From Acidimicrobiaceae bacterium (GTDB lineage: Bacteria > Actinomycetota > Acidimicrobiia > Acidimicrobiales > RAAP-2): 53,282 nucleotides of DNA. The stretch lies in assembly GCA_003164095.1 (NCBI GenBank), contig PLRX01000116.1, forward strand, positions 1 to 53,282, in the 5' to 3' direction. A model generated the notes under the pieces. It saw only the letters and a program-made list of their open reading frames with translations. It did no database searches and was not told the DNA's origin. This document shows, piece after piece, positions 21,280 through 41,603 of the stretch. Made by a program: the position numbers and the translations under genes. The first letter of the stretch is position 1. Each line of letters starts with the position of its first letter.

Positions 21280-22574
21280 CCACCTCCACCCTTCCTCGCG
21301 TCGAGCGTCTGCTCCACAGCGGTCCCGGCGGCCCGACCGATCCGGGCCTGGCCGGCCACGTGGCACTGCACGGCTCACTTGCGGTCCCGGCCCGTCACGA
21401 CCCGGCCTGGTCCGAGGCGCTCCTCGCCGAGGTGGCCGCCGCCGGTCTCACCGGCCGTGGTGGTGGTGGGTTCCCGGCCGCCGCCAAGTGGGAGGCGCTC
21501 CGCCGTGGCGGCCGCAGGCCTGTCGTGGTCGTCAACGCCATGGAGGGTGAGCCGGCCAGCGCCAAGGACCGCGCGCTCCTCGCCTGGTCACCCCATCTCG
21601 TGCTGGACGGGGCCGAGCTGGTCGCCGCCCTGTCCGGTGCCCGCTCCGTGGTGGTGTGCGTGGCTGACGACCGTGACGCATCGGCACGGGCCGTGCGCAT
21701 GGCGGCGGCCGAGCGGTCCGCCGCAGGCACGGTCCGCGAGGTGACGGTCCAGCAACCGCCGGCCCGCTACGTGACCGGCGAGGAATCGGCACTGGTCAAC
21801 TGGCTCTCCTCGGGTGACGCCCGTCCGGTCCTCCGTGTCGACAAGTCCGTCCCCCTCCGCCTCGGCCGGCGCCCGGTGCTGGTGCACAACGCCGAGACCT
21901 TCGCCCAGGTGGCACTCATCGCCCGTCACGGGGCGACGTGGTTCCGGGGCGCCGGGACCGGGGACGCCCCGGGGTCGACCCTGGTCACTGTGTCCGGTGC
22001 CGTGTGCACCCCCGGTGTCGTCGAGGTCGGACTCGGCACGCCCGTGGACGAGGTGGTCCGCCGCTGCGGTCCGACCGGCCCCGTCTCGGGGTATCTCGTC
22101 GGTGGCTACGGCGGCGCGTGGCTGGCACCCGAGCAGGCGTCGACCCCCCTCGCCCCGGCACCCCTTGCTCGGGCGGGGGCCACCCTCGGGGTCGGCATCA
22201 TCGTCGCGCTGCCGGCCGACTCCTGCGGGATCGCCGAGACGGCGCGCATCACCCGGTGGATGGCCGGGGAGAGTGCCGGCCAGTGCGGTCCCTGCGTGTA
22301 CGGGCTCCCGGCGATCGCCGACGACCTCGAGCTCCTGGCCGGCGGCCGCGCCGACCCCGGGGCCGTCGGCCGGATCGACGAACGGGCCCGCTCGATCGTC
22401 GCACGTGGGGCATGCCGCCACCCGGACGGCGTGGCGCGCATGGTGCGCAGCGCACTGGCGGTATTCGCATCGGACGCCGCGGCCCACGCGGCCGGTCGAC
22501 CGTGCGCCGGACGGCACGCGCCGAGCGTGCTGGCGTTCCCGACGTCACCCGCACTGGTGGGGGAGGCGTCATGA
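21276..22574 (+). CDS. NuoF-like FMN/iron-sulfur protein (NADH:quinone oxidoreductase 51-kDa family)
   Basis: A 432-residue soluble protein of the NuoF/RnfC type that could take electrons from NAD(P)H. The FMN/NADH region is LTGRGGGGFPAAAKWEAL followed by NAMEGEPASAKDRALL; an SLBB-like segment comes next (VTVSGAVCTPGVVEV). The C-terminal cluster site reads ESAGQCGPCVYG with a further Cys in GACRHPDG. The usual ESCGxCxPC has three cysteines here; the first is Ala, so only three ligands remain. It probably feeds the ferredoxin and the heme membrane protein encoded beside it. Confidence 0.85.
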   Translation: MTTSTLPRVERLLHSGPGGPTDPGLAGHVALHGSLAVPARHDPAWSEALLAEVAAAGLTGRGGGGFPAAAKWEALRRGGRRPVVVVNAMEGEPASAKDRALLAWSPHLVLDGAELVAALSGARSVVVCVADDRDASARAVRMAAAERSAAGTVREVTVQQPPARYVTGEESALVNWLSSGDARPVLRVDKSVPLRLGRRPVLVHNAETFAQVALIARHGATWFRGAGTGDAPGSTLVTVSGAVCTPGVVEVGLGTPVDEVVRRCGPTGPVSGYLVGGYGGAWLAPEQASTPLAPAPLARAGATLGVGIIVALPADSCGIAETARITRWMAGESAGQCGPCVYGLPAIADDLELLAGGRADPGAVGRIDERARSIVARGACRHPDGVARMVRSALAVFASDAAAHAAGRPCAGRHAPSVLAFPTSPALVGEAS

Positions 22575-26439: not shown

Positions 26440-27870
26440 TCATGATTGGCCGTCACCACGGAGGGTGGGCACGAGAGGGCCGAGCGTGCGCACGCGCAGG
26501 CACCCGGTCCACACCCCGGCGCCGTAGGCGACGTCATCCGCCACCGACGCGGCGATCCAGCGGGGAAGGTCCAGGTCCGGGCGTTGCCTCACCCAGTCGA
26601 CCACCGGGGGCGCCAGTACGAGGAGCGCGGCCGCTCGCCGTCCGCGTCGCCCACCGGCGGCGAGGGCGAGCAGACCCGGCCACGCCACCATCGTCGACGC
26701 CCGGCCGAGGCCCATGACCGTCCATCCGGCGCCCGCGGCGGACCACCGCCACGCCCGACCGGCCGGGATCCCGAGCGGCCGGACCGTCCGGGCGAGCGGG
26801 ACGGCGGAGGCGGCGACGACCCCGGCAGCCAGGACGGGCCGGCCGGCCAGCAGGGCGAGCGCGGCGATGAGGGGCCGGGGGCGGAGCTCGACGGGAGCCA
26901 GACGGCCCGGGTGGCGCCTGGCCAGGGGGGCGGCCGACGTGCCGTAGGCGAAACGGCGGGCGAGCAGGTCCCGCCAGCGGTCCGGTTCCTGATGGGACAC
27001 GGTCACCGAGGGGACGTAGCGGACGCGCCAACCGGCGTCGACCAGTCGCCAGACCAGGTCGACGTCCTCGCCCATGCGCATTCCGGGAGCGAACCCGTCG
27101 ACCTGGTCGAGGGCGGACCGGCGCACGACCAGGGCGGCGGTGGGGACGTAGCGGACGGCCCGGTCCGGCCCGACATACCCCTCGTCGGGTCCGAGGTCCA
27201 GGGGGGAGTGCGCGTCACGGAACCGGTCGAGCGCACGGCTGCCGGACGAGGGGACCGGGAGCGGACGTACCCGGGGTGCGACCGCACCGTAGTCGGGGTC
27301 GGCGAACAGCCAGGTGAGGCCGTCGAGCCATCCGTCGGGCACGGTGCAGTCGCTGTCGACGAAGGCGACCAGCTCGGTGCGCACCAGTGGGCGCGCCGTG
27401 GATCGGGCATCGCCAGGGCCGCCGTTCACCTCGCGGCGGACCAGGTGGGCACCGTGCGCCCGGCAGACGTCGGCCACGGCGCCCGGGTCGGCCGAGGCGT
27501 CGTCCACCACGACGACCGGTTGATCATGGCCGAGGGAGGCGAGGCAGCGGGCGAGCGCTCCGGCCCGGTCCCGAACGGGCACCACCACGGTCACCGACGG
27601 GCGTGGGGGGGAGCGGGTGGCACCCGACGGGCTGTCAGCGCGGGGCGGCCGAGGGTGGGCCATGCCTGCCGCCACCAGCCGACCGGCCAGCTCACGTGTG
27701 GCACTGTCAGGTCCGCTCCCTGCCACGAGGTCGTCCAGCGCCGCGGCGCCGACGGCGGTCAGCGTGATGATCCGACCGGGTCGACCTCCGGCCAGCACGG
27801 TTCCCTCCCGGAACCGGAGGAGCGACCGGTCGAGTGCCAGACCGAACCCCTCGGGCAGCGGTGCGTTCAC
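26440..27870 (-). CDS. mftF: Mycofactocin glycosyltransferase MftF
   Basis: A 476-residue protein. MftF enzymes add glucose units to premycofactocin. The first 75 residues (LPEGFGLALDRSLLRFREGT onwards) look like a small winged-helix module, perhaps for binding the peptide. A GT2 domain follows: VTVVVPVRDRAGALARCLASL, VVVDDASADP, the DxD motif in AFVDSDCTVPDGWL, and GMRMGEDVDLVWRL. The C-terminal 170 residues hold hydrophobic helices, suggesting membrane association. GTG start at 27868-27870, 7 bp after the SDR stop. It is the last gene of the mycofactocin operon. Confidence 0.88.
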   Translation of the reverse strand: MNAPLPEGFGLALDRSLLRFREGTVLAGGRPGRIITLTAVGAAALDDLVAGSGPDSATRELAGRLVAAGMAHPRPPRADSPSGATRSPPRPSVTVVVPVRDRAGALARCLASLGHDQPVVVVDDASADPGAVADVCRAHGAHLVRREVNGGPGDARSTARPLVRTELVAFVDSDCTVPDGWLDGLTWLFADPDYGAVAPRVRPLPVPSSGSRALDRFRDAHSPLDLGPDEGYVGPDRAVRYVPTAALVVRRSALDQVDGFAPGMRMGEDVDLVWRLVDAGWRVRYVPSVTVSHQEPDRWRDLLARRFAYGTSAAPLARRHPGRLAPVELRPRPLIAALALLAGRPVLAAGVVAASAVPLARTVRPLGIPAGRAWRWSAAGAGWTVMGLGRASTMVAWPGLLALAAGGRRGRRAAALLVLAPPVVDWVRQRPDLDLPRWIAASVADDVAYGAGVWTGCLRVRTLGPLVPTLRGDGQS

Positions 27871-27877
27871 CCCGGGG

Positions 27878-28714
27878 TCACAGGGCCAGCCCACCGTCCA
27901 CCGGCAAAACAGCGCCCGTGACGGCGCCGCGATCGGCATCGGCGAGCCACACGAGCGCGTCGGCCACCTCGACAGGGGCGAGGAGCCGTCCGACGGGCTG
28001 CTGGTCGGCGAACGCGGCGGTACCTGCGAGGTCGTAGAGGCGGGCACTCTCGGCCAGCATCGCCGTGTCGGTCGACCCGGGGCAGACGGCGTTGGCCGTG
28101 ACGCCGGTTCCGGCGAGCTCGACCGCCAGGCCCCGCACGAGTCCGGCCACTCCGGCCTTGGCCGCACCGTAGGCAGCGAGCTTGGGGAGGCCGGTGATGG
28201 CGGCAGCAGAGGCCACGGCCAGGTAGCGCCCCTGGCGTGGCGCCGGACGACGGAGGAGGGCCGGAACCCCGACCCGGGCGGCGACGATCGGACCGAGCAG
28301 GTCGACGTCGAGCACGGCCGCAAGCTGATCGGCCGGCATCTCCCACAGGGGGACGCCCCCGGCGATGACTCCGGCCACGGCCACGATGGCGTCGAGGCCG
28401 CCGAAGCGGGCCTCGGCGTCGGCCACGGCGGCACCGAGGCCGGACTCGTCGGTGGTGTCGGCCACGTGGGCCACCACGCCGCCCGGCGCGTCGCCGCGCA
28501 GGCGCCCGGCGTGGTGGACGACCTCGTCGAGCTCGGCCCGGGTGCCGAGCGGGTAGGGGATCCGGCGGTCGTCGGCGCACCTGTCGACCGCCACCACCGA
28601 CCAGCCGGCACCGGCCAGGCCCAGCACGGTCGCGGCGCCGATGCCCCGCGCCGCCCCTGTCACCAGGGCGACCCGTCCGGTCCCCCGGGGTGCGTCGGTC
28701 GGCTGCGTCGTCAT
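27878..28714 (-). CDS. Mycofactocin-coupled short-chain dehydrogenase (second type)
   Basis: A 278-residue SDR with TGAARGIGAAT for dinucleotide binding and YGAAKAG as the Tyr-x3-Lys pair; the catalytic Ser lies in VASAAAITG. Between strand 2 and helix 3 it has an insertion (DRCADDRRIPYPLGTRAELDEV as one block, about 45 residues). In mycofactocin-coupled SDRs such an insertion closes over the bound NAD and prevents exchange. Such enzymes pass hydride from tightly held NADH to mycofactocin. It overlaps mftE by 4 bp. The alcohol substrate is unknown. Confidence 0.85.
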   Translation of the reverse strand: MTTQPTDAPRGTGRVALVTGAARGIGAATVLGLAGAGWSVVAVDRCADDRRIPYPLGTRAELDEVVHHAGRLRGDAPGGVVAHVADTTDESGLGAAVADAEARFGGLDAIVAVAGVIAGGVPLWEMPADQLAAVLDVDLLGPIVAARVGVPALLRRPAPRQGRYLAVASAAAITGLPKLAAYGAAKAGVAGLVRGLAVELAGTGVTANAVCPGSTDTAMLAESARLYDLAGTAAFADQQPVGRLLAPVEVADALVWLADADRGAVTGAVLPVDGGLAL

Positions 28715-29418
28715 GGTGTGACCTCCTGTGCGGCAGGTCGCCGACGCAGGTCGGCGACCACGGTGGCCAGGTCGGCAGCCGCCGCCCGGATCAGTCGGTG
28801 TCCCTCGTCGGCCGTGGCGCCGGTCGGATCGCCCAGTACCCCGCTGGCGCTCACGGACCGCACCCCGCCGGTACGCAGCAGGGGGAGCAGCTCGTCGGCG
28901 GGACGCAGGTCTCCCGCCACCATGCGGTCGGTCCGGACCGTGTCCGGGGCGATGGCGAGCATGAGGGAGGTCTCGGTGCGACCGGCGTGCAGGTCGCCCT
29001 CCCAACGCGGCCACCAGCCGGTGACCGGGTGACCCTCGTCGGCCAGGCGCGCCAGTGCCCGGGCGAGGGGGACGGCGTTGCCGCCGTGGGTGCAGGCCAG
29101 TACGACGTGGGCGAAGGTGACCGACGCGGAGCGGCCCAGTTCGACGAGGAGCGACTCGGTCGCTTCCCGGCCGAGGGAGAGTGTGCCGGCAAAGCCGTCG
29201 TGCTCGCCACTGGACCCGTAGGCCACCGGCGGGGCGACCACGACGGACGGGTCGAGTGCGGCCGCGGCCTCCGCCACTGCGACCGCGATGTCGGTGTCGG
29301 TCGTGACCGGCAGGTGGGGCCCGTGCTGCTCGGTCGCCCCCACGGGCACGACGAGGACGGCGCCCGCGTCGGCCAGGTCGGCGAGTGACGGCCAACAGCT
29401 CCCGTCCAGCCGGGTCAT
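28711..29418 (-). CDS. mftE: Mycofactocin precursor peptidase MftE (creatininase family)
   Basis: A 235-residue creatininase-family metalloprotease. MftE cuts the modified C-terminal Val-Tyr unit from MftA to release AHDP. The metal ligands are in the usual places: VGATEQHGPHLP with Glu and His, TDTDIA, and LACTHGGNA; a further Glu is in YGSSGEHDGF. Length fits the family. The ATG at 29416-29418 overlaps the ETF beta stop, and the end overlaps the SDR, so it is firmly part of the operon. Confidence 0.92.
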   Translation of the reverse strand: MTRLDGSCWPSLADLADAGAVLVVPVGATEQHGPHLPVTTDTDIAVAVAEAAAALDPSVVVAPPVAYGSSGEHDGFAGTLSLGREATESLLVELGRSASVTFAHVVLACTHGGNAVPLARALARLADEGHPVTGWWPRWEGDLHAGRTETSLMLAIAPDTVRTDRMVAGDLRPADELLPLLRTGGVRSVSASGVLGDPTGATADEGHRLIRAAAADLATVVADLRRRPAAQEVTP

Positions 29419-30410
29419 GCGGTCGGATCCCCGGTGGACGGTGCGACGCCCCCGCCGGGCACGGCGTCGAGGTAGCCGTGGCGCACGAGGAAGTCGAGGA
29501 GCACGTCGGCGGCCTCGGCGGCACTCTCCGGCTGGACGACCGTCGGTGGGTCGTGGGCCACGAGCGCGCCGGTCAGCGCCAGGAGGCGGAGCCGCGGGTC
29601 GTCCCCTTCCGGCGGCGGGAGCACACGGGTGCGGGGGGAGTAGGGCCGGGTGGGCCCGAGGTGGACGGATCCCGGGTCACCGGTCGGGCTACCTGCCGCC
29701 TCCACCTCGAGCGAGCGGTCCACCGGGGTCGGGACGCCGTCGACGGCCAGCGCACCGGCCAAGGACGCCCGACGCAGGCGCACCCCGGCGCCTTCCACGG
29801 AGCACACGGCGGGGAGGGGAACGCGCAGCTGCTCGCGCCAGCCGGCGTCGAGGCGCCGTTCCACCAGCAGTGCACCGGGACCGTTCGGCTGGAGGGCCAC
29901 GAGGCCCAGCGCCTGTGCGGCACCGAGCTCGTGGGCGAGGTAGGCCGGCAGCGCGCCGGTGCCGCGGTCCACCGAGCGGTCGCCGCAGAGCACGAGGTCG
30001 GGTGGGCCGAAGGGACGCACGGCGGCCAGGAGGGTGCGGGCCAGGGCGCGCTCGTCGTCCGCCAGCTCGGTGACGTAGCGGTGGGCGTCGGCCTCGTCCG
30101 CCGCCGGGACCCGGACGACCGCCACGCCGAGGGCCGCCACCTCGCGCAGGACCGGCTCGACCGACCTGGGTCCCACGCACACCCCCACCACCCGACCGCC
30201 CCAGGCGGCGGACACCCGGAGGGCGTGCTCGAGGGCCGCGGCATCGGCGGGAGGGAGCCCGACGCCCCACCGGTCCCGCGTGACGCTCCCGTCGAGGGGG
30301 TCGACGGCAGGGCGGAGGTCGCCGATGCGGAGGCACGCCACCACCAGCGGTCCGTCGCCGGCCTGCGGGGCGGGGACGTGGCTGCCCGGGAGCACGTCGG
30401 GGCCGGTCAT
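29415..30410 (-). CDS. Mycofactocin-associated electron transfer flavoprotein, beta subunit
   Basis: A 331-residue ETF-beta-like protein (ordinary ones are about 250). The fold is read from LVVACLRIGDLRPAVDPLDG at the start, the alternating ALEHALRVSAAWGGRVVGVCVG unit, LVLCGDRSVDRGTGALPAYLAHELG with the conserved D-x-G-T-G-x-x-P/A core, and VPLPAVCSVEG. The last 75 residues are an extra part: VLPPPEGDDPRLRLLALTGAL to the end, partly helical. ETF beta binds AMP and part of the FAD with ETF alpha, which is encoded three genes upstream rather than next to it. Confidence 0.85.
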   Translation of the reverse strand: MTGPDVLPGSHVPAPQAGDGPLVVACLRIGDLRPAVDPLDGSVTRDRWGVGLPPADAAALEHALRVSAAWGGRVVGVCVGPRSVEPVLREVAALGVAVVRVPAADEADAHRYVTELADDERALARTLLAAVRPFGPPDLVLCGDRSVDRGTGALPAYLAHELGAAQALGLVALQPNGPGALLVERRLDAGWREQLRVPLPAVCSVEGAGVRLRRASLAGALAVDGVPTPVDRSLEVEAAGSPTGDPGSVHLGPTRPYSPRTRVLPPPEGDDPRLRLLALTGALVAHDPPTVVQPESAAEAADVLLDFLVRHGYLDAVPGGGVAPSTGDPTA

Positions 30411-30721
30411 CCGTGGTGGAAGACGACGCCGTGGCCGCCGTCGGGATAGGTCCAGGTGAGGGCACCTTCGGAGTTGCAGACCATGTAGCAGGTACCGCAC
30501 TCGAAGCACTCCTCGTAGTTGAAGAGGATGCCGCCGTCGGCGGTGGGCGCGAAGAGGTTGGCCGGGCACGCGGTGACGCAGGCCTTCGTGGTGCACGACC
30601 GGCACACGTCGGCGTCCACCGCGATGTGGGCCCGGGCGCCGACCCGGAAGTCGACGGTGGCCATCCGCTCCTCGAAGGAGATGCCGTCCCAACGGCGCCT
30701 GGCGGGCGGGGGAGCGCTCAT
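30407..30721 (-). CDS. FixX-like ferredoxin
   Basis: A 104-residue ferredoxin. Cysteines lie in VCRSCTTKACVTACPANLF and EECFECGTCYMVC, the FixX arrangement with one 4Fe-4S site certain and a second motif possible. FixX proteins form a complex with FixC and relay electrons from ETF to quinone. Both ends overlap the neighbours by 4 bp (FixC-like before, ETF beta after), which supports a joint complex. Confidence 0.9.
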   Translation of the reverse strand: MSAPPPARRRWDGISFEERMATVDFRVGARAHIAVDADVCRSCTTKACVTACPANLFAPTADGGILFNYEECFECGTCYMVCNSEGALTWTYPDGGHGVVFHHG

Positions 30722-32028
30722 CCGAAGATCCTCAGGCCGCGCACGGTGTCCGTCGCCAGCTGGCGGAGGCTGACCCCGTACCGTGCCGCGGCCGCCCGGG
30801 TCAGCTTGAGTCCGCCCGCCTTGGGGGTCGGGTTGGTCACGGTGAACATCCCCTCCGCAAGGTCGCACAACAGGCCGGGATAGCGCTGCTGGACCCGGTC
30901 GGACAGCACGAGCGACGGCGCCTTGCGGAGCCGCTTGTGGTCGGCCAGCACGAATTGGGACTCGAGGTCGGTGCGGTAGGAGGCAAGCCCCCGGGCCGAG
31001 CAGTCGCCGGCGGCCAGCGCCCGGTCGGCGGCCCGACCCGCGGCGTAGCCGGAGCCGATGGCGAAGTTCACGCCTTCGAGCCACAGACCTGCGGCCAGGG
31101 TCATGGCCCCGGCATCGCCGGCGACGAGCATGCCGTCGGAGGCGAGTGCCGGCATGGTGTCGTACCCGCCCTCCGGGATGAGGTGCGCCGCGTACTCGCG
31201 CAGGCTGGACCCCCGCAGGAGCGGGGCGATGGTCGGGTGGGCCTTGAGGTCGGCCACGAGTTCCTCGGGTCGCACCCCCGACGCCGCCAGCTGGGGGAGG
31301 GACACCACGACCCCGATACTCACGGTGTCGGCGTTCGTGTAGAGGAAGCCGCCCCCCGGGATCTCGCGGGTGCAGCCCAGGATCTCCATGTCGACACCCT
31401 CGTGGTCCTGGACGCCGAACCGCTCGTTGATGGCGCCGTGCGGGAGGTCGAGTACCTCCTTGACCCCGAGGGTGTGATGGGACGCCTCCGCCCGCGGCAG
31501 GAGGCCGGCCTCCTTGGCCAGGAACGAATTGACGCCGTCGCAGGCGATGACCACCGGTGCGTGCAGCTCGGCCCCGTCGCGGTCGGTGCGGACGCCCACC
31601 ACGCGGCCGGCCCCGTCGCGCACGAGGCCGGTGGCCACCGTCGACGCCACCAGACGCGCCCCGGCCCCGGTGGCCTTGCCGGCCAGCCATGCGTCGAAGT
31701 GGCTCCGCAGCGTGGTCATGCCGTTGTAGGGAGCCGACCCCCAGGCATCGGTGCGGAAGTCCACCGACAGGGACTGGGTGCCGGTCATCATCATCGTGGA
31801 GCGCCGTACCACCCAGCGCTCGACGGGCACCTCCTCCCACCAGTTCGGCACGATGTCGTCGAGCACCCGGCCGTAGACGACACCGCCGTAGACGTTCTTG
31901 GCACCCGGGAAGGGCCCACGTTCCACCAGCACCACCGAGCGACCGGCCCGGGCCAGGGCGAGCGCGGCCGCGGCACCTGCGGGTCCCGCCCCGACCACCA
32001 CGGCGTCGAACGTCAGCACCTCAGGCAC
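30718..32028 (-). CDS. FixC-like electron-transfer-flavoprotein:quinone oxidoreductase
   Basis: A 436-residue FAD protein that should oxidise ETF and reduce menaquinone at the membrane surface. It begins with the dinucleotide fold FDAVVVGAGPAGAAAALALARAG and an acidic strand end ERG, continues with the quinone oxidoreductase segment NVYGGVVYGR, and has the second FAD motif DGMLVAGDAGAM followed by EGVNFAIGSG. It lacks its own cluster domain, which the FixX-like gene supplies. The GTG at 32026-32028 starts just before the fold and overlaps the end of ETF alpha by 8 bp. Confidence 0.9.
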   Translation of the reverse strand: MPEVLTFDAVVVGAGPAGAAAALALARAGRSVVLVERGPFPGAKNVYGGVVYGRVLDDIVPNWWEEVPVERWVVRRSTMMMTGTQSLSVDFRTDAWGSAPYNGMTTLRSHFDAWLAGKATGAGARLVASTVATGLVRDGAGRVVGVRTDRDGAELHAPVVIACDGVNSFLAKEAGLLPRAEASHHTLGVKEVLDLPHGAINERFGVQDHEGVDMEILGCTREIPGGGFLYTNADTVSIGVVVSLPQLAASGVRPEELVADLKAHPTIAPLLRGSSLREYAAHLIPEGGYDTMPALASDGMLVAGDAGAMTLAAGLWLEGVNFAIGSGYAAGRAADRALAAGDCSARGLASYRTDLESQFVLADHKRLRKAPSLVLSDRVQQRYPGLLCDLAEGMFTVTNPTPKAGGLKLTRAAAARYGVSLRQLATDTVRGLRIFG

Positions 32029-33052
32029 GGGCCACCTCCGGGCCGCCGGTGTCGTCGACGCCCAGCCGTCGGGCCAGCTCGACCAGCAGCGCATGGGCGT
32101 CGGTCACCAGCCCCAGGTCGGCCATGGCCGTCATGGGGCACGACGGATCGGTGTTGACACTCACCACGTGCCGGGGGGCACCGAGCCCGCCGGTGTGCTG
32201 TGCGGCGCCCGACACGCCGAGCGCCACGTAGAGGTCCGGATCGACGGTCACCCCGGTGGTGCCGATCTGGCGCTCGTAGCCCGTCCAGCCGGCGTCGGTG
32301 GCCACCCGGGTGGCCCCGGCCGATCCGCCGAGCGCGGCGGCGACTCCGACGAGCAGGTCGAACACCCCCGTCGCCCGGTGGTCGTCCAGCCCCGCGACCA
32401 GGCCGGCCCCTCCGGCGACCACCCGGCTGGCGTCCGCCAGGTCCATCGTCTGGAGGTCCGGCTCGAGCAGGGCGACCAGTTCGGGCTCGGCCGGGTCGTC
32501 GAGTGGTCCTCCGAGGTCGAGTGCCTCGTAGGAGGCGTCGGGCGAGCCAAGGGCGTCGGCCGATGCTCCGGTGTGGCCGGCGGGCCGGCCGCCGACGGCC
32601 AGGGTGACCACGGCCGGGCCCCGCACGTCCACGGGCACCAGCATGCGGTCGTCCACCCGGCTGACCTGGGCGCAGACACCCGGCGGGTCACCGTGCACGA
32701 CCCGGGCCGCGATGGCACGGGCCAGGAGGGGCCGACCGGTGGCCGCGGCCAGTCGGGGCGCGAGGTCCCGGCCGTCGGGCGAGGCCGGCAGGACGACCAG
32801 GGTGTCGCGGGCGACGACCACCGCAAGTGCGGCGGCCAGTGCGGCAGGACGGAAGCCGGTGTCGGCCCAGCGGGCGTGGGTCACCCCGGTCAGGGCCAGG
32901 GCCGCGTCCTCGGCGCCGCTGCCGACCACGACCACCCGGCCCCCGGCCTCGGCGACCGCTTCGACGGCGCCGACGGGCAGCCTGCCGTCGCGGGCCACGA
33001 CCACGGCCACGGCCATCGGATCGGTCGCGTCGGGGACCCGTGCGGAGCTCAC
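32021..33052 (-). CDS. Mycofactocin-associated electron transfer flavoprotein, alpha subunit
   Basis: A 343-residue ETF-alpha-like protein. The C-terminal FAD-binding domain is clear: GAGLVAGLDDHRATGVFDLL, then YERQIGTTGVTVDPDLYVAL, then GVSGAAQHTGGL and NTDPSCPM. The N-terminal domain is more diverged. The GTG at 33050-33052 overlaps the stop of FadH/OYE protein 2; the ATG 13 codons on is an alternative start. With ETF beta it forms the single-FAD shuttle between the flavoprotein dehydrogenases upstream and FixCX downstream. Confidence 0.9.
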   Translation of the reverse strand: MSSARVPDATDPMAVAVVVARDGRLPVGAVEAVAEAGGRVVVVGSGAEDAALALTGVTHARWADTGFRPAALAAALAVVVARDTLVVLPASPDGRDLAPRLAAATGRPLLARAIAARVVHGDPPGVCAQVSRVDDRMLVPVDVRGPAVVTLAVGGRPAGHTGASADALGSPDASYEALDLGGPLDDPAEPELVALLEPDLQTMDLADASRVVAGGAGLVAGLDDHRATGVFDLLVGVAAALGGSAGATRVATDAGWTGYERQIGTTGVTVDPDLYVALGVSGAAQHTGGLGAPRHVVSVNTDPSCPMTAMADLGLVTDAHALLVELARRLGVDDTGGPEVARA

Positions 33053-35016: not shown

Positions 35017-35041
35017 GGCGCGCCCACCGGGCGTCCGGGGC

Positions 35042-35869
35042 TCATCGGGCCGACGCCCCGGCGTCGACGGTCATGGTGAGGCCGGTCACGTAGCGGGACT
35101 CGTCCGATGCCAGGAACAGCACGGCGTTCGAGATGTCGTCGGATCGGACGAGGTCGACGGGAAGCGAGTTGCGGAACAGGGCGCCCACGTCGGGATCGCC
35201 CTCGATGCGCTCGGTCAGGCCCACCATCCCGTTGAGCATCGGCGTGTCGACGCCGGTCGGGTGGAGGGAGTTGACCCGGATGTGCTTGGAGGCCAGCTCG
35301 TTGGCCAGGCTGCGCATGATCCCGACCACGCCGTGCTTGGAGGCCACGTAGGCCGTGAGGAACGGTTGCCCTTTCAGGCCCGCGGTCGAGCTGATGAGGA
35401 TCATCGACCCGGCCCCGGCGTCCAGGAGGTGGGGGATGGATGCCGTGCACGTGTTCCAGACGCCGGTCAGGTTGATGCCGACGACGGTGTCCCACAGCGC
35501 CGGGGTCACCTCGTCCCACCGCCGGATGGCGCACACCCCGGCATTGGCGACCACCACGTCGAGGCGTCCGAGCTCGTCGACGCCGCCGGCCACCGCGGAA
35601 GCCATGCCTGCTGCGTCCCGCACGTCGACGTCGGCCGTGACCACCCGTCCACCGGCCTCCTCCACCAGGCGCGCCGTCGTGGCGAGGTCGTCGGCGGAGG
35701 CGGTCACGTAGTCCACCTCCTCGACGGGAGCACACACGTCGAGGGCGATGACGTCCGCCCCCTCGGCGGCGAACCGGACCGCGTGGCTGCGACCCTGGCC
35801 ACGGGCCGCGCCGGTCACCAGGGCCACCTTCCCGGCCAGCCGGCCGGTCGTGCGGTCGTTCGTCGTCAT
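35042..35869 (-). CDS. Mycofactocin-coupled short-chain dehydrogenase (TIGR03971 type)
   Basis: A 275-residue SDR with TGAARGQGRSH for NAD binding, NAG, the catalytic Ser of ISSTAGL and the YVASKHG pair. The GARGQGRSHA variant and the insertion DVCAPVEEVDYVTASADDL after strand 2 are the signature of SDRs that hold NAD permanently and use mycofactocin as the external acceptor. ATG at 35867-35869, overlapping the stop of FadH/OYE protein 1. A gap of 25 bp to the next gene is one of the few unlinked junctions in the operon. Confidence 0.92.
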   Translation of the reverse strand: MTTNDRTTGRLAGKVALVTGAARGQGRSHAVRFAAEGADVIALDVCAPVEEVDYVTASADDLATTARLVEEAGGRVVTADVDVRDAAGMASAVAGGVDELGRLDVVVANAGVCAIRRWDEVTPALWDTVVGINLTGVWNTCTASIPHLLDAGAGSMILISSTAGLKGQPFLTAYVASKHGVVGIMRSLANELASKHIRVNSLHPTGVDTPMLNGMVGLTERIEGDPDVGALFRNSLPVDLVRSDDISNAVLFLASDESRYVTGLTMTVDAGASAR

Positions 35870-37869
35870 GTGGTCGCTCCTGTCGTGGCGTGGATCCGGG
35901 GAGCGGGCACCAGCCCGCACAGCTCGAGCGCCAGGCGGCGCCCTTCGAGGACCGCCTCCAGCACCGTGCGGGGGGCGACGCAGTCCCCGGCCCGCAGGGT
36001 CCCGGGGCGGTCGAGGTAGAGGGACTCGTCGGGGAGCCGGTGGCCGCACTCGACGACCACGGCCACCGGCACCTGTCGGGTCGCTCCCGTCCAGGGGTCC
36101 TGGAGCTCGGCACGGCCGTCGGACAAGCGGCGCAGCAGTGACCGCAGCTCGCGTCGGACACCCGCCTGTTGGAGGCGGGTGTTGGCGTCGGCCAGGTCGC
36201 CGGTCAGTGACAGCAGGGTGCCCGCGATCTGGTCGGCGGTCACCAGCGCCACGTCCCGGCCGGCGGCGGCCAGCCACTCGGCCACTCCGACGCCGATCGG
36301 ACCGCCCACCGTGTCGTGGACCAGCACGGGGCCGTCGGGAAGGGAGCCCGGGTCGCCGGTGAGGGCGGAGGCGGCGTCGACGACGACCACGCTGCCGTCG
36401 TCCGGCACGGCGGAAGGTGTGGGGCGCCCGCCGGTGGCGAGGACGACGGTCGTGCCGGCCCCGACGGCGGCGTCGAGGTCGGCTGCGCTCGCCTCGACCC
36501 CGGTGGTAACGGACACGCCGAGCCGGTCGCACTCGGACGCGAGCCAGGCGGGAAGGTCGGCCAGACGCTGCCGACCGGGCCCGACGGCGGCGGCCCTCAG
36601 GGCGCCGCCGGTGCGGTCGGTGCGCTCGACCACGCGGACCCGGTGCCCCCGGAGCGCCAGGACCCGGGCGCACTCCAGACCGGCCGGGCCGGCACCCACC
36701 ACGAGGGCGTCGACAGCCTGGTCCGCGCCACCGCCACCGCCACCGCCACCGCCGACGGCCTCGGGGTCGATGTCGACCGTCTCGTGGCCCGAGCGGGGCT
36801 CGCCCACACAGCTGACCAGCGGGTTGCGGTTGTCGCGCACCCGACAGGCCTGGTTGCACAGGACGCACGGCCGGACCGTCGACGGCGCACCGGCGCGGAC
36901 CTTGTCCACCAGCCGAGGGTCGGCGATCTGGGCCCGGGTCATCTCCACCAGATCGGCCGTGCCGTCGGCCAGCGCAGTGCCGGCCATGGCGGGGTCGACC
37001 ACGCTGCCCTGCAGCACGACGGGCACGCGACCGGCGGCGGCCTGTCGCATTGCGGCACAGAGCTCCAGGTTGAACCCGTCCGGGGTGTGGGCGTCCGGTC
37101 GGTAGGCGGTGGCCGAGTAGGGCCCGCCGCGCACGACGGTGAGCAGGTCCACTGCGTCGGCCAGCGCGTCCACGTGCGCGGCTGCGTGCTCCGGCGTCAC
37201 ACCCGCCCACGGGGCCAGCTCGTCGCACGACAGGCGGAGGGCGACGACGCGGTCGGGACCGACGGCCCGGCGCACGGCGTCGAGTACCTCACTTGTGAGG
37301 AGCAGCCGGTCCTGCCCGTACTCGTCCTCGCGTTGGTTGGTCAGGCCCGAGTGGAACTGGCGGAGCACCGACAGGGGCCCGGCATCGAGCTCCACGCCGT
37401 CCAGGCCGGCGTCGACGGCGGCACGGGCGGAGGCGGCGAACCCCTCCACCAGAGCCCCGAGCTCGGGTCGCCCCATGGCCATCGGCAGCTCGCGGCTGGC
37501 CACGTCGGCCACCGGTGACGGGGCCCACAGCACGGACTGCGAGTACGCGCTCGACCCCTGGCCGCCGGCGTGTCCCAGCCCGGCGAGCACCACGGTCCCG
37601 TGGGGCCGACAGGCCTCGGCGACCGCCCGCCACCCCGGCCCGCACGCCGAGGCGAGGGGGGCGCGCTCGTACGGCCAGTCCGAGGGGTGCACGGAGGCCG
37701 TCTCGGTGATGATCACGCCGGCCCCGCCCGCCGCCCGTGCCTCGTAGTAGGCGACGTGGCGCGGGCCGATGGACCGGCCGTCGCCCAGGTTGGTCTCGTG
37801 GGGGCCGAACACCACCCGGGACGGTGCGAGGCGCGGCCCGACGTCGACCGGGCCGGTGGGCCCCGTCAC
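35866..37869 (-). CDS. FadH/TMADH-like flavoprotein 1 of the mycofactocin system
   Basis: A 667-residue three-part protein like its paralogue: FMN barrel, 4Fe-4S loop with CVLCNQACRVR and VSCVGEPR, then a nucleotide-binding part starting VDALVVGAGPAGLECARVLALRG. Active-site loss goes further: the barrel motif is DAGPLSVL, with neither His nor Tyr, and the second Rossmann glycines are absent (VLVHDTVGGPIG). A run of ten glycines, encoded partly by four GCCACC units at 36727-36750, forms a linker before the FAD domain. GTG start at 37867-37869, overlapping the mftC stop. It matches 'mycofactocin system FadH/OYE oxidoreductase 1'. Its substrate is unproven. Confidence 0.86.
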   Translation of the reverse strand: MTGPTGPVDVGPRLAPSRVVFGPHETNLGDGRSIGPRHVAYYEARAAGGAGVIITETASVHPSDWPYERAPLASACGPGWRAVAEACRPHGTVVLAGLGHAGGQGSSAYSQSVLWAPSPVADVASRELPMAMGRPELGALVEGFAASARAAVDAGLDGVELDAGPLSVLRQFHSGLTNQREDEYGQDRLLLTSEVLDAVRRAVGPDRVVALRLSCDELAPWAGVTPEHAAAHVDALADAVDLLTVVRGGPYSATAYRPDAHTPDGFNLELCAAMRQAAAGRVPVVLQGSVVDPAMAGTALADGTADLVEMTRAQIADPRLVDKVRAGAPSTVRPCVLCNQACRVRDNRNPLVSCVGEPRSGHETVDIDPEAVGGGGGGGGGADQAVDALVVGAGPAGLECARVLALRGHRVRVVERTDRTGGALRAAAVGPGRQRLADLPAWLASECDRLGVSVTTGVEASAADLDAAVGAGTTVVLATGGRPTPSAVPDDGSVVVVDAASALTGDPGSLPDGPVLVHDTVGGPIGVGVAEWLAAAGRDVALVTADQIAGTLLSLTGDLADANTRLQQAGVRRELRSLLRRLSDGRAELQDPWTGATRQVPVAVVVECGHRLPDESLYLDRPGTLRAGDCVAPRTVLEAVLEGRRLALELCGLVPAPRIHATTGATT

Positions 37870-39098
37870 CTGGCGGTGGGAGCGGAGCCGGGCGCGAACC
37901 CGGCGAGCGGGTGCTCGTCGCAGCTGCGGTCCGGCCGCCGGTCGGGCGTCCCGCCGCGGGTGGTCAGGGCTACGGCCACCGTGCGGGGACGCGAGGAATG
38001 GTCGGGTGACGGGCGGGGCGTCTCGACGTCGCCGCGGGCGCCGAGCGCGTGCTCGCCGTGCCCCAGGACGCATTCGGGGTCGGGGCCGTCCAGCGGGAGC
38101 CCGGTGAAGAACTTGGCCGCCATGCACCCGCCCCGGCAGGCGTCGAAGTGGCCGCACGAACTGCACGCCCCGGCGCTCTGGGGCTCCCGGAGTTCGAGGA
38201 ACAGGTCGGACGCACGCCACACCGAGGTGAACCCACCGGCGCCGCGCACATTGCCGGCCAGGAACTCGTCGTGGATGGCGAACGGACAGGCGTACACGTC
38301 GCCGACGGGGTCGACCAGGCACACCACGCGTCCGGCGCCGCACAGGTTGAGGCCCGGCAGGGCGTCGCCGTAGGCGGCGAGGTGGAAGAACGAGTCCCCC
38401 GTGAGTACCTCCTCGCCCCGCAGGACGAGCCAGTCGTAGAGCTGGCGCTGCTGGTCGGCGGTGGGGTGCAGCTCGTCCCAGACATCGGCCCCGCGGCCGG
38501 ACGGGCGCAGGCGGGTCAGGCGGAGCTGGGCCCCGTACCGGTCGGCGATGGACTTGAACGCGTCGAGCTGGCCGACGTTGTGGCGGGTCACGACCACCGA
38601 CAGCTTGAACCCGGCGAAGCCGGCAGCGGCCAGGCGCTCCATGGCCGTGACGGCGGTGGCGAACGAACCCTCGCCGCGCACGGCGTCGTTGACCTCGGCG
38701 GTCGCCCCGTCGAGGGAGATCTGGACGTCGACGTAGTCGCTGGCGGCCAGTCGGGCGGCTATGGCCTCGCTGATGCGCGACCCGTTGGTGGAGAACTTGA
38801 CCCCCACGTGGTGCTCGGTGGCGTAGTCGACCAGGTCCCAGAAGTCGGACCGGATGGTCGGCTCGCCCCCGCCGATGTTGACGTAGAAGATCTGCATCCG
38901 CTCGAACTCGTCGATGAGCGCACGGCACTCCGCCGTCGTGAGCTCGCGCGGGTCACGGCGTCCCGAGCTCGACAGGCAGTGCACGCATGCCAGGTTGCAG
39001 GCGTAGGTGAGCTCCCAGGTCAGGCAGATGGGGGCGTCGAGCCCCCGCTCGAACCGGTCGACCAGTCGGGTCCCCTCCGCCGGGGCGACGGTCGTCAC
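37866..39098 (-). CDS. mftC: Mycofactocin radical SAM maturase MftC
   Basis: A 410-residue radical SAM/SPASM enzyme. MftC decarboxylates the C-terminal Tyr of MftA and then links Val to Tyr. The SAM cluster motif CNLACVHC is at residues 34-41, followed by IGGGEPT. The SPASM region carries cysteines in LNLCGAGRVVC, VYACPF, GACSSCGHFDACRGGC and PECVLG. About 45 residues after the last cysteine form a polar tail, slightly longer than usual. GTG start at 39096-39098 overlaps the mftB stop. Confidence 0.95.
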   Translation of the reverse strand: MTTVAPAEGTRLVDRFERGLDAPICLTWELTYACNLACVHCLSSSGRRDPRELTTAECRALIDEFERMQIFYVNIGGGEPTIRSDFWDLVDYATEHHVGVKFSTNGSRISEAIAARLAASDYVDVQISLDGATAEVNDAVRGEGSFATAVTAMERLAAAGFAGFKLSVVVTRHNVGQLDAFKSIADRYGAQLRLTRLRPSGRGADVWDELHPTADQQRQLYDWLVLRGEEVLTGDSFFHLAAYGDALPGLNLCGAGRVVCLVDPVGDVYACPFAIHDEFLAGNVRGAGGFTSVWRASDLFLELREPQSAGACSSCGHFDACRGGCMAAKFFTGLPLDGPDPECVLGHGEHALGARGDVETPRPSPDHSSRPRTVAVALTTRGGTPDRRPDRSCDEHPLAGFAPGSAPTAR

Positions 39099-39394
39099 GC
39101 CACCCGCTCGCAGATCATCCCGGAGCCGACCAGGGTGGCGAGGGCCTGCTCGTAGGCGCCCTGCTCCTCGGAGGTCACGCCGGCGGCGCGGCAGGCGGCC
39201 AGCCCGGACGGCTGGTCGGCCAGGGACTCGACCACGGCCAGCAGGGTCCGGCTCTTCAGGAACGAGAGGCGCCGGGTGCCGAAGTGGTAGGCGAGGGCAC
39301 CGAACGATTCCGGGCGCAGCGCCACCTGGGGATGGAGGGCATAGGGCCGCGCGGGGTCGAACGCTGCGTCGGCCGGTGGCGGGGTGGGGGGCAT
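39095..39394 (-). CDS. mftB: Mycofactocin peptide chaperone MftB
   Basis: A 99-residue RiPP-recognition-element protein that binds the leader of MftA and presents it to MftC. It shows YALHPQVALRPESFGALAYH then FGTRRLSFLKSRTLLAVVE and a Thr/Leu-rich end, the PqqD-like winged-helix pattern of MftB. ATG at 39392-39394, 37 bp after the mftA stop; the 4-bp overlap with mftC fits a fixed stoichiometry. Confidence 0.92.
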   Translation of the reverse strand: MPPTPPPADAAFDPARPYALHPQVALRPESFGALAYHFGTRRLSFLKSRTLLAVVESLADQPSGLAACRAAGVTSEEQGAYEQALATLVGSGMICERVA

Positions 39395-39431
39395 GGCGGG
39401 ACGGGTCCGGTCGGAGGGTGCCGTCGGCGGT

Positions 39432-39578
39432 CTAGTAGACGCCGCACATCCCGTCGATGGACACGTCCTCGACGAGTAGATCGCTCTCCACCAGCTCCAC
39501 CGTGGCGGGCTCGGTGGCGACGGCGGCCTCGTCGGCGACGATGACGGCGGTGGGCTCCTTGGTCGTGGTGATGGTCAT
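39432..39578 (-). CDS. mftA: Mycofactocin precursor peptide MftA
   Basis: A 48-residue peptide. Its C-terminus IDGMCGVY is the invariant mycofactocin core, with the final Val-Tyr converted to the redox cofactor. The leader starts MTITTTKEPTAVIVADEAA and is acidic (ELVESDLLVEDVS), suited to binding MftB. GGAGGA lies 5 bases before the ATG at 39576-39578. It is the first gene of the minus-strand operon and its promoter must overlap the palindrome at 39625-39642. Confidence 0.95.
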   Translation of the reverse strand: MTITTTKEPTAVIVADEAAVATEPATVELVESDLLVEDVSIDGMCGVY

Positions 39579-39624
39579 GGGTCCTCCGGTGGGTCAGCCG
39601 GCGCGGGGCCGGGCACGTTCAGTG

Positions 39625-39642
39625 GGTGCAATTTAGTGCACC
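39625..39642. promoter_or_regulatory. Probable MftR operator between mftA and mftR
   Basis: GGTGCA-ATTTAG-TGCACC is a perfect 6-bp inverted repeat with a 6-bp AT-rich spacer, in the divergent gap between mftA and mftR. TetR regulators bind such sites, and this one could control both directions. It sits 46 bp upstream of the mftA start and 38 bp before the chosen mftR start. Confidence 0.6.
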
Positions 39643-39680
39643 GGATGCCAAAATGGAAGCGTGACGACCGGGCGGGCCTG

Positions 39681-40322
39681 ATGACGACTGCAGACGGGGG
39701 TTCCACCACACCCGCCGGCAGGGACGGTGCGGCGCGTGGTCGTCCGGCCGCGACGTCGCGTCAGGACGTCGCCCGTGCCGCCCTCGACCTCTTCGCCCGC
39801 CAGGGCTACGACGAGACCACGGTCGACGAGATCGCGGCGGCGGTCGGGATCTCGCGGCGGACCTTCTTCCGCTACTACGAGTCCAAGCCCGACGTCGTGT
39901 GGGGGGAGTTCGACGCCGAGTTGGGACGCCTGCGTGACCGCCTGGCCGAGGCACCGGATTCGGAGCCCCTGATGGATGTGCTCCGGCGGTCGGTCATCGC
40001 CACCAACCGCTTCGGTGCGGGCGAGCTCGACGAGCTGCGCATCCGGATCGTGCTGATCAGCACCGTGCCCACCCTGGTGGCCCACTCGGCGGTCCGTTAC
40101 GAGGAGTGGTGCGAGGTCGTCGCCGGGTTCGCCGCCGGCCGGCTCGGGGGGTCGCCCGGCGACCTCGCCCCCCAGACGGTGGCACGGGCGGCGCTCGGCG
40201 CCGCCATGGCCGCGTTCGCCTGCTGGGCCCGCAGCGAGGGGGGCGACCTGGTGGCCGAGGTGGACCGGGCCTTCCGGCTGCTGGCCACCGGGTTCGCCGA
40301 CGACGGACGCGACGCGGCCTGA
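39681..40322 (+). CDS. mftR: TetR-family regulator MftR
   Basis: A 213-residue TetR regulator. The DNA-binding domain reads RQDVARAALDLFARQGYDET, TVDEIAAAVGISRRTFFRYY and ESKPDVVW. In mycobacteria MftR represses the mft operon and is released by long-chain acyl-CoA; the divergent place next to mftA supports the same role here. The start is uncertain: ATG at 39681 is used, but ATG at 39645, just past the palindrome, is also in frame and would suit a leaderless message. Confidence 0.9.
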   Translation: MTTADGGSTTPAGRDGAARGRPAATSRQDVARAALDLFARQGYDETTVDEIAAAVGISRRTFFRYYESKPDVVWGEFDAELGRLRDRLAEAPDSEPLMDVLRRSVIATNRFGAGELDELRIRIVLISTVPTLVAHSAVRYEEWCEVVAGFAAGRLGGSPGDLAPQTVARAALGAAMAAFACWARSEGGDLVAEVDRAFRLLATGFADDGRDAA

Positions 40323-40451
40323 GTGCGGCCCCGAACCGGGCGGTCACCTGCCCGCCACACGGCGGTGTGTCGACGGGACCGCCGGGACGGTGCGATGCTG
40401 GTCCCCTGAATGCGAGGCGCCAGGGGGGCGCCGACCCTAGGGGAGGACCAC

Positions 40452-41603
40452 ATGAAGATCCGTGCCGCCGTCTGTTCCGGTCTCGAGGAGCCGTGGAAGA
40501 CCGAGGAGGTCGAGATCGACGCTCCCCACGCCCATGAGGTGGTCGTCCAGTTGGCCTACGCCGGGATGTGCCACTCCGACGAGCACCTCCGCCATGGCGA
40601 CATCAGCGTCGAGCCCGAGGTGCTCTCGGTGTTCGGCGTCGACTCGCTCTTCCCCTGCATCGGTGGCCACGAGGGCGCCGGTGTCGTGGTGGAGGTCGGC
40701 GAGGGGGTCGAGACGGTGGCCGTCGGCGACCACGTGGCGGCAGCGTTCATGCCGGCGTGCGGCACGTGCTTCTGGTGCGCCTCGGGGCGCCAACACCTGT
40801 GCGACCTCGGCATGTTCACCCTGGCCGGCCCGATGATGAGCGACATGACCTGGCGGCACCACCTCGACGGCGCCAACGTCAACCGGATGACCCAGCTCGG
40901 CACCTTCGCCGAGCAGATGGTCGTCAACGAGGCGTCGCTGGTGAAGATCGATCCGGATGCCTCGCTCAAGGCCGCCGCACTGATCAGCTGCGGGATCTCG
41001 ACCGGCTTCGGCTCGGCCGTGGACCGGGCGAAGGTGAGGCCGGGGGAGACCGTGGTGGTCGTCGGGTGCGGTGGTGTCGGCTCCGGTGCCCTGCAGGGTG
41101 CCCGCCTGGCCGGCGCCCGCCAGATCATCGCGGTGGACCCGTTGCCCTTCAAGCTCGAGAAGGCGATGAAGGTGGGCGCCACCCACGCCGCCGCGTCGAT
41201 GCTCGAGGCCAACCTCCTGCTGCCCGAGCTGACCGAGGGCCGGATGGCCGACGTGGTCATCCTCACGCCGGGCGTCCTGACCGGCGACCTGATCGCCCCC
41301 GCCATGGCGCTGGCGTCCAAGGACGGACGGGTCGTCGCCACGGCCATCGCTCCGTTCAACCAGAACCAGGTCGACCTCAACCTGTTCAACTTCTCGATGT
41401 TCAACCAGGCACTGCTGGGTACGGTGTTCGGCTCGGTCAGCCCACGGGTGCAGATCCCCAACCTGCTCCGTCTCTACGAGGCGGGCATGTTGGAGATCGA
41501 CGACCTGATCACCCGGGAGTACTCGCTCGACCAGGTGCAGGACGGCTACGACGACCTGGCCGCCGGCACCAACATCCGCGGCATCGTCGCCTTCGACGTC
41601 TGA
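40452..41603 (+). CDS. NDMA-type, mycofactocin-dependent alcohol dehydrogenase
   Basis: A 383-residue zinc alcohol dehydrogenase. Catalytic zinc ligands are in AGMCHSDEH (Cys about 40) and GGHEGAG (His 73), and the structural zinc cysteines in ACGTCFWCASGRQHLC (103, 106, 109, 117). The Rossmann motif is VVGCGGVGSG. The segment MMSDMTWRHHLDGANVNRMT is typical of the NDMA-dependent group, which keeps NAD bound and gives electrons to mycofactocin in vivo. GGGAGGA lies about 6 bases before the ATG. It follows mftR by 129 bp and is the probable alcohol-oxidising client of the cofactor made next door. Confidence 0.93.
   Translation: MKIRAAVCSGLEEPWKTEEVEIDAPHAHEVVVQLAYAGMCHSDEHLRHGDISVEPEVLSVFGVDSLFPCIGGHEGAGVVVEVGEGVETVAVGDHVAAAFMPACGTCFWCASGRQHLCDLGMFTLAGPMMSDMTWRHHLDGANVNRMTQLGTFAEQMVVNEASLVKIDPDASLKAAALISCGISTGFGSAVDRAKVRPGETVVVVGCGGVGSGALQGARLAGARQIIAVDPLPFKLEKAMKVGATHAAASMLEANLLLPELTEGRMADVVILTPGVLTGDLIAPAMALASKDGRVVATAIAPFNQNQVDLNLFNFSMFNQALLGTVFGSVSPRVQIPNLLRLYEAGMLEIDDLITREYSLDQVQDGYDDLAAGTNIRGIVAFDV

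Follow-up and report, generated by a model that had tools for sequence, protein, structure and literature searches.

An OYE-ETF-FixCX gene module as a candidate replacement for MftD in mycofactocin loci of Actinomycetota and haloarchaea

Mycofactocin operon of an Acidimicrobiaceae bacterium

The window, that is, the whole stretch of DNA analyzed, is the 53,282-nucleotide contig PLRX01000116.1 of an Acidimicrobiaceae bacterium (GenBank assembly GCA_003164095.1). It carries a single compact mycofactocin operon on the minus strand, in the order mftA-mftB-mftC-OYE1-SDR-OYE2-etfA-fixC-fixX-etfB-mftE-SDR2-mftF, with mftR and the gene of an N,N-dimethyl-4-nitrosoaniline (NDMA)-dependent alcohol dehydrogenase on the opposite strand. 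The block OYE2-etfA-fixC-fixX-etfB, referred to here as the module, encodes a flavoenzyme of the old yellow enzyme (OYE) type, the two subunits of an electron transfer flavoprotein (ETF), and FixC- and FixX-like proteins, and it occupies the position held by mftD in many mycofactocin loci.

Genes were named using NCBIfam models with curated cutoffs, applied to the proteins of the window. All genes of the locus scored above their own cutoffs, with the exception of fixC and fixX, which were named by homology, and the matches to MftA, MftB, MftC, and MftF identify the locus as one for mycofactocin biosynthesis. A preliminary reading of the DNA made without database searches (the sequence-only reading) had placed mftA, mftB, mftC, mftE, mftF, and mftR here, and each was upheld by its NCBIfam match. 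The features, including two short-chain dehydrogenases/reductases (SDRs) and the enzyme that releases 3-amino-5-[(p-hydroxyphenyl)methyl]-4,4-dimethyl-2-pyrrolidinone (AHDP), are as follows.

26440-27870, minus strand: mftF, oligoglycosyltransferase (TIGR03965, 374 bits; GTG start near 27870, judged by eye)
27878-28726, minus strand: SDR2, second mycofactocin-coupled SDR, between mftE and mftF (TIGR04504, 323 bits, cutoff 250)
28711-29418, minus strand: mftE, peptidase releasing AHDP (TIGR03964, 270 bits)
29415-30410, minus strand: etfB, mycofactocin-associated ETF beta (TIGR04503, mft_etfB, 328 bits, cutoff 200)
30407-30721, minus strand: fixX/etfX-like ferredoxin, eight Cys in two 4Fe-4S motifs (NF011993, 47 bits, below cutoff; 7koe chain D, E = 5.5e-14)
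30718-32028, minus strand: fixC/etfC-like quinone reductase flavoprotein (NF007542, 314 bits, below cutoff; 7koe chain C, E = 1.2e-71)
32021-33052, minus strand: etfA, mycofactocin-associated ETF alpha (NF038209, mft_etfA, 382 bits, cutoff 240)
33049-35016, minus strand: OYE2, FadH/OYE flavoenzyme with flavin mononucleotide (FMN), 4Fe-4S, and dinucleotide domains (TIGR03997, OYE_2, 1005 bits, cutoff 793)
35042-35869, minus strand: mycofactocin-coupled SDR, SDR_subfam_1 (TIGR03971, 354 bits, cutoff 300)
35866-37869, minus strand: OYE1, FadH/OYE paralogue with a degenerate FMN site (TIGR03996, OYE_1, 906 bits, cutoff 628)
37866-39098, minus strand: mftC, radical SAM maturase (TIGR03962, 664 bits)
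39095-39394, minus strand: mftB, peptide chaperone (TIGR03967, 114 bits)
39432-39578, minus strand: mftA, precursor peptide (TIGR03969, 47 bits, cutoff 25)
39636-40322, plus strand: mftR, TetR-type regulator, divergent from mftA (TIGR03968, 236 bits, cutoff 225)
40410-41603, plus strand: NDMA-dependent (mycofactocin-type) alcohol dehydrogenase (TIGR03989, 486 bits, cutoff 440)

The sequence-only reading had correctly located the module between mftC and mftE but counted six genes in that interval rather than the seven present (OYE1, SDR, OYE2, etfA, fixC, fixX, and etfB), and SDR2 was missing from its gene list. Its description of nearly all genes as joined by 4-bp overlaps holds for seven of the nine junctions from mftB to mftE; etfA and fixC overlap by 8 bp, and 25 bp separate OYE2 from the SDR gene.

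MftD and MftG in the genome, and candidate clients of the module

The source genome is 95.5% complete and is held in 163 contigs. Its best match to the MftD model (TIGR03966), on another contig, scored 273 bits against a cutoff of 471, and no match was found to TIGR03970, the one MftG model searched (the others being TIGR04542 and NF038210); the absence of mftD and mftG described for the window by the sequence-only reading was in this way extended to the whole genome. The best-matching protein was considered as a hidden MftD and rejected, being an L-lactate dehydrogenase (NF008398, 513 bits, cutoff 376) that lies far below the MftD cutoff.

An acyl-CoA dehydrogenase was also rejected as the sole client of the module. 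The gene concerned, in the window at 10848-12116 (minus strand), is separated from the operon by approximately 14 kb, and the genome has another EtfB-EtfA pair elsewhere (contig L053), whose best matches are below the cutoffs of the models; thus, the module need not serve beta-oxidation. Approximately 7.5 kb from this second pair, at L053:15175-16506, is a gene for an F420-hydrogenase beta-subunit-like protein (FrhB family, below the cutoff). The window itself also contains a NuoF-like reading frame with Complex1_51K and NADH_4Fe-4S domains (20508-22574, plus strand), and no further complex I subunit was recognized among the window reading frames scanned.

Distribution of the module, MftD, and MftG across the phylum

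From a census of 396 genomes drawn from the phylum, with a completeness of at least 90% asked, only the 73 with MftC above the cutoff were analyzed further; these include three f48-family genomes whose MftC is divergent (near 330 bits) and G208, in which MftC is broken in two. MftD was above the cutoff in 57 of the 73, in 38 cases within approximately 5 kb of mftC, and none of the 57 showed an OYE match at that distance from mftC or nearer. OYE_2 was above the cutoff in 14 genomes, every one among the 16 without MftD, and the remaining two of the 16 gave 787 bits (G378, where the gene is split over contig ends) and 764 bits (G326) against the cutoff of 793. The neighborhood in G378 consists of OYE1, OYE2, etfA, and fixC across two contig ends, and that in G326 of OYE1, OYE2, a partial etfA, fixC, fixX, and mftE, with etfB not recognized. 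Counting these two, which are under the cutoff, OYE2 is present in 16 of 16 MftD-lacking and 0 of 57 MftD-bearing MftC genomes, the highest OYE_2 score in any MftD genome being 562 bits. Similarly, mft_etfB was above the cutoff in 11 of the 73 genomes, none with MftD. In several module genomes the genes are scattered across two or three contigs, with MftD nonetheless missing, and nine of the 16 have no MftD match even at the lactate dehydrogenase level. These counts bear out the proposal of the sequence-only reading that a dedicated flavoprotein-ETF-FixCX electron path is tied to mycofactocin.

The three f48 loci (L175, L176, and L177, from G325, G176, and G309) have the divergent mftC followed by OYE2, etfA, fixC, fixX, and mftF, without OYE1; etfB was found in two of the three, and that of L177 was detected by profile only. 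As to whether the module is favored by anaerobes, a search of 55 of the 73 genomes for COX1 (PF00115) gave no match in the three f48 module genomes, the module genome G366, and also five f34 MftD genomes; the control, Corynebacterium glutamicum, gave none either, so that these absences carry no weight.

MftG, counted in the census by TIGR03970 only, was above the cutoff in 18 of the 73 genomes; all 18 also had MftD, and none was among the 16 module genomes. The other 39 of the 57 MftD genomes had neither MftG above this cutoff nor the module, although at least four of them have a lower-scoring glucose-methanol-choline (GMC)-type gene near mftC. These genes, in G341 (377 bits, cutoff 387) and, with weaker scores, in G255, G249, and G351, lie within approximately 13 kb of mftC and may belong to other MftG subfamilies. 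As MftG is found only with MftD and the module avoids MftD, the module and MftG do not fill the same slot, and the gene for which the module stands in is more likely to be mftD than mftG. The census therefore speaks against the suggestion of the sequence-only reading that the module replaces MftG.

Module loci in named genomes and on plasmids

Using an OYE2 profile, 425 relatives were identified in a collection of 84,980 species, and the best 80 loci were kept. Among these best 80 of 425, OYE2 was present in 80, etfA in 77, OYE1 in 76, fixC in 75, fixX in 71, etfB in 70, and mftC in 59, and the order mftA-mftB-mftC followed by OYE1-OYE2-etfA-fixC-fixX-etfB largely recurs as far as the contigs extend. 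The loci span Acidimicrobiia, Frankia, Saccharopolyspora, Amycolatopsis, Prauserella, Kutzneria, Solirubrobacter, and Streptomyces. MftC was above the cutoff in 31 of the 34 genomes checked (including all 21 whose locus had no local mftC), the three misses being metagenome-assembled genomes (MAGs), which upholds the link between the module and mycofactocin.

Within plasmid sequences, 12 plasmids were found to encode MftC at E values up to 1e-60; annotated regions were viewed for eight of these, the rest being tblastn matches. Four carry mftD, at 65 to 74% identity (Mycolicibacterium chubuense, Tsukamurella, Thermomicrobium roseum, and one Streptomyces), and eight carry the module, two of them haloarchaeal; OYE2 occurs at 73 to 79% identity on six Streptomyces plasmids. 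The plasmid mftD search gave four other records, all on plasmids without MftC: lactate dehydrogenases in two cases, both from P. aeruginosa, and partial stretches from Sphingopyxis in the other two. The latter, on the Sphingopyxis macrogoltabida plasmids H39 and H40, are unannotated MftD-like stretches of 70% length and 52% identity.

On the plasmids of Haloterrigena turkmenica and Halolamina, one OYE gene, etfA, fixC, fixX, and etfB stand next to mftA, mftB2, mftC, and a glycosyltransferase gene. The Haloterrigena OYE is closest to OYE_2 (625 bits, below the cutoff). MftB2 is in use on both haloarchaeal plasmids (NC_013744, L237, and NZ_CP054588, L242), and on both a VWA protein and an AAA ATPase are encoded just past the OYE gene. 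OYE1 was not found in the f48 loci or in the haloarchaeal loci viewed; thus, OYE2-ETF-FixCX is the minimal unit seen.

Exchanges between module and MftD on the MftC tree

An MftC tree of 95 rows (57 MftD, 16 module, and 22 named loci) required 13 changes between the two types; within it, the module genome G247 clusters with the mftD genomes G338 and G099 with a support of 100. In a stricter tree of 72 rows, made by dropping 24 of 96 input rows (long branches, near copies, and two short ones), 11 changes were required, with 10 to 12 over the bootstrap range and four forced by supported branches. Module and MftD types were thus exchanged about 11 times on the MftC tree. In supported independent pairs MftD changes in the opposite direction to the module in four of four (P = 0.125, not significant; four supported pairs cannot reach 0.05).

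Sequence features of OYE2, OYE1, and the ETF-FixCX proteins

The closest solved relatives of OYE2 are 2-naphthoyl-CoA reductase (NCR), FadH, the nicotine enzyme 6l6j, histamine dehydrogenase, and trimethylamine dehydrogenase (TMADH). All 93 OYE2 sequences keep the FMN residues; 91 keep all four 4Fe-4S cysteines, and the other two (one of them L177) have Asp at one position. All 93 have Ser at the column of the FadH Tyr, so that the Tyr expected of FadH/NCR-type NADPH reductases is missing, and all 93 carry Asp in place of the Gly of FadH and NCR, so that the second dinucleotide domain no longer has the glycine motif for NADPH. From general OYE biochemistry, we take the Tyr column to be that of the proton donor and the glycine motif to be that for NADPH. 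OYE2 has the set of features of ETF-linked amine dehydrogenases, namely, the FMN barrel residues, the 4Fe-4S ligands, and the loss of the NADPH motif from the second dinucleotide domain, and it also has His173 and Glu62 in common with them, a pattern that other OYE proteins share in part. At the Cys that holds covalent FMN in TMADH and histamine dehydrogenase, Leu is found in all 93 sequences, and the Cys is likewise lacking from Pno (6-hydroxypseudooxynicotine dehydrogenase).

In OYE1 the FMN contacts Gln105 and Arg300 are lost in 79 of 79 sequences; judging from these lost FMN-binding residues, OYE1 is more likely to be a partner subunit than a second catalyst.

FixC and FixX have EtfC and EtfX of Thermotoga maritima EtfABCX (7koe) as their closest solved relatives, and bifurcating ETFs rank first among the solved structures related to etfB. 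Arg38, near the bifurcating flavin adenine dinucleotide, is one of four residues mutation-tested for bifurcation (PMC10734219), and at this one of the four sites Arg is present in only 15 of 87 module etfB sequences. With one bifurcation-linked residue missing from the ETF, a plain electron chain is likelier.

Proposed role of the module

In mycobacteria, MftD oxidatively deaminates AHDP, and Mycobacterium smegmatis without mftD accumulates forms of AHDP (PMC7491314). Precedents for an alternative are published: Pno has noncovalent FMN, a 4Fe-4S cluster, and ADP, its acceptor being EtfAB and then a quinone oxidoreductase (PMC7688666), and an ETF-TMADH complex has been described for trimethylamine breakdown (PMC8097209). 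Occurrence and published precedent together suggest OYE2-ETF-FixCX as a substitute for MftD. We therefore favor, with a probability of roughly 0.55, a reading in which OYE2-etfA-fixC-fixX-etfB, with OYE1 as a usual extra, replaces MftD, performing the oxidative deamination and passing the electrons via ETF and FixCX to quinone. OYE2 would oxidize the primary amine of AHDP, or of a glycosylated form, at FMN to an imine, and attack by water would then give the keto-amide pre-mycofactocin and ammonia. The electrons would leave through the 4Fe-4S cluster of OYE2 to the dedicated ETF, the two FixX clusters, FixC, and the quinone pool; the reduced cofactor made by the SDRs and the alcohol dehydrogenase would perhaps be reoxidized through the same chain. 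More tentatively, and at somewhat short of even odds, this could amount to a second, unrelated route to the mycofactocin redox core across Actinomycetota and haloarchaea, in which an OYE-type amine dehydrogenase works through its own ETF/FixCX to quinone, has been exchanged some 10 times with MftD, and perhaps also recycles the cofactor.

Several points weigh against replacement of MftD. A complete chain from ETF to quinone is a heavy investment for a reaction that each cofactor molecule undergoes a single time. The putative amine dehydrogenase role of OYE2, which we hold only slightly more probable than its opposite, draws on occurrence and precedent. Several of the amine-dehydrogenase-like residues are also present in other OYE proteins, and as other paralogues share part of the pattern, it is better evidence against an NADPH reductase than in favor of an amine dehydrogenase. 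The 15 OYE2 rows in the tree form a branch of their own (support 94/93), separate from the amine dehydrogenases (100/100). The OYE2 model matches NCR, FadH, TMADH, and histamine dehydrogenase alike (Z scores of 47.2, 44.8, 44.8, and 43.9), a fold comparison that does not separate amine dehydrogenases from FadH/NCR.

The sequence-only reading had proposed counting how often ETF/FixCX genes and mftD/mftG exclude each other; module and MftD are complementary in the census, but the exclusion is not absolute among the named genomes. MftD was above the cutoff in nine of the 50 named module genomes tested (50 of the 80), namely, seven Saccharopolyspora, Pseudonocardia bannensis, and one MAG, and a tenth, Amycolatopsis rhizosphaerae, has MftD in two pieces at contig ends. 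In two Saccharopolyspora one mftD copy adjoins a second mftC. The other copies (L165, L167 to L171, L173, and L174; mostly Saccharopolyspora) have no mftA, mftB, mftC, mftE, or mftF within 10 kb, or less at contig ends, and such an orphan MftD may do its own job in these module genomes. MftD was present in seven of 12 Saccharopolyspora tested, S. erythraea not being among them, which weakens the argument for the module from that species.

The proposal of the sequence-only reading was that the module reoxidizes mycofactocinol to quinone in place of MftG, another enzyme performing the MftD step. A respiratory chain is better matched to such a high-flux step than to a biosynthetic reaction carried out once. 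The TIGR03970 match is missing from the genome studied and from all census module genomes, and the orphan mftD copies fit as well; moreover, what replaces MftG in approximately 25% of mftC genomes was stated as open by Graca in 2025 (PMC11778925). Nevertheless, this is unlikely, as MftG never occurs without MftD in the census and MftD is missing from the 16 module genomes, and 39 MftD genomes have neither MftG, as counted by TIGR03970, nor the module. It would also leave no enzyme for the deamination in MftD-less genomes, including the nine without a relative at the lactate dehydrogenase level. Finally, MftG was above the cutoff in three of the 50 named module genomes: P. bannensis, where it accompanies MftD, and, with no MftD above the cutoff, Amycolatopsis pithecellobii and Streptomyces viridiviolaceus. 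If these GMC proteins are true MftG, this too does not fit a plain MftG substitute.

A dual function, in which OYE2 acts on AHDP in synthesis and on mycofactocinol in use through the same ETF-FixCX chain, replacing both MftD and MftG, would account for both absences in the census and for the cost of a full chain. It is improbable, since a single FMN site would need to accept both an amine and an alcohol, OYE1 having lost its FMN contacts throughout. Still harder to credit is a different, amine-keeping cofactor of the AHDP type, with the module as redox partner of an amine/imine couple: the loss of MftD would be directly explained, but this locus has the SDR and alcohol dehydrogenase families of ordinary mycofactocin, and methylated mycofactocin is reported from S. 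erythraea (PMC11162802), whose genome is outside those checked for mftD. A complex that bifurcates electrons in the manner of T. maritima EtfABCX, with ferredoxin as a further acceptor, is suggested by the nearest relatives of FixC, FixX, and etfB but is highly implausible given how few module etfB sequences have Arg at the Arg38 equivalent.

If the module does replace MftD, the step creating the redox-active group, for which the published pathway has the single enzyme MftD, would be carried out in a sizable fraction of mycofactocin producers (16 of the 73 MftC genomes of the census) by a different, respiration-linked enzyme. Cluster finders that demand mftD would misfile such producers, and the question of producers without MftG would split into 39 census genomes with MftD but no TIGR03970 MftG and 16 with the module. 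It also offers a concrete candidate substrate for a flavoenzyme family of no assigned function.

Relation to known systems

The families OYE_1, OYE_2, mft_etfA, and mft_etfB are already named by NCBI, and Haft in 2011 found TIGR03966 in most, but not all, mycofactocin species (PMC3023750). In the literature searched, mycofactocin was not found together with "electron transfer flavoprotein" or FixC, and of the family names only TIGR03997 co-occurs with it, in PMC11162802 alone. That paper, on BGCFlow (2024), lists 17 Saccharopolyspora clusters that resemble the present locus in lacking mftD and having TIGR03997 (OYE2), notes that antiSMASH 6.1.1 misfiles such clusters, and is the source citing methylated mycofactocin in S. 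erythraea; in its available portions, it differs in giving no role, no ETF/FixCX link, and no survey past the genus. Missing mftD with OYE2 is thus already known in Saccharopolyspora, and for the phylum-wide complementarity of MftD and OYE2 and the link to ETF/FixCX no account was found in the literature searched.

The mycobacterial mftABCDEFG locus shares mftA, mftB, mftC, mftE, mftF, mftR, and mycofactocin-coupled dehydrogenases with the operon described here, which differs in having no mftD or mftG and in carrying OYE1-SDR-OYE2-etfA-fixC-fixX-etfB in the place of mftD between mftC and mftE. EtfABCX/FixABCX systems likewise have etfA, etfB, fixC, and fixX in a single operon, here joined to OYE2 and mftC. 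The Pno/EtfAB/Euo system of Agrobacterium tumefaciens S33 and the TMADH/ETF system combine an FMN-4Fe-4S enzyme of the OYE/FadH type, without the NADPH glycine motif, with a quinone-reducing ETF dehydrogenase, and the ETF genes adjoin that of Pno as they do OYE2. OYE2 differs from both in lying on a separate branch, and in the module FixC and FixX are two proteins where these systems have one ETF:quinone oxidoreductase.

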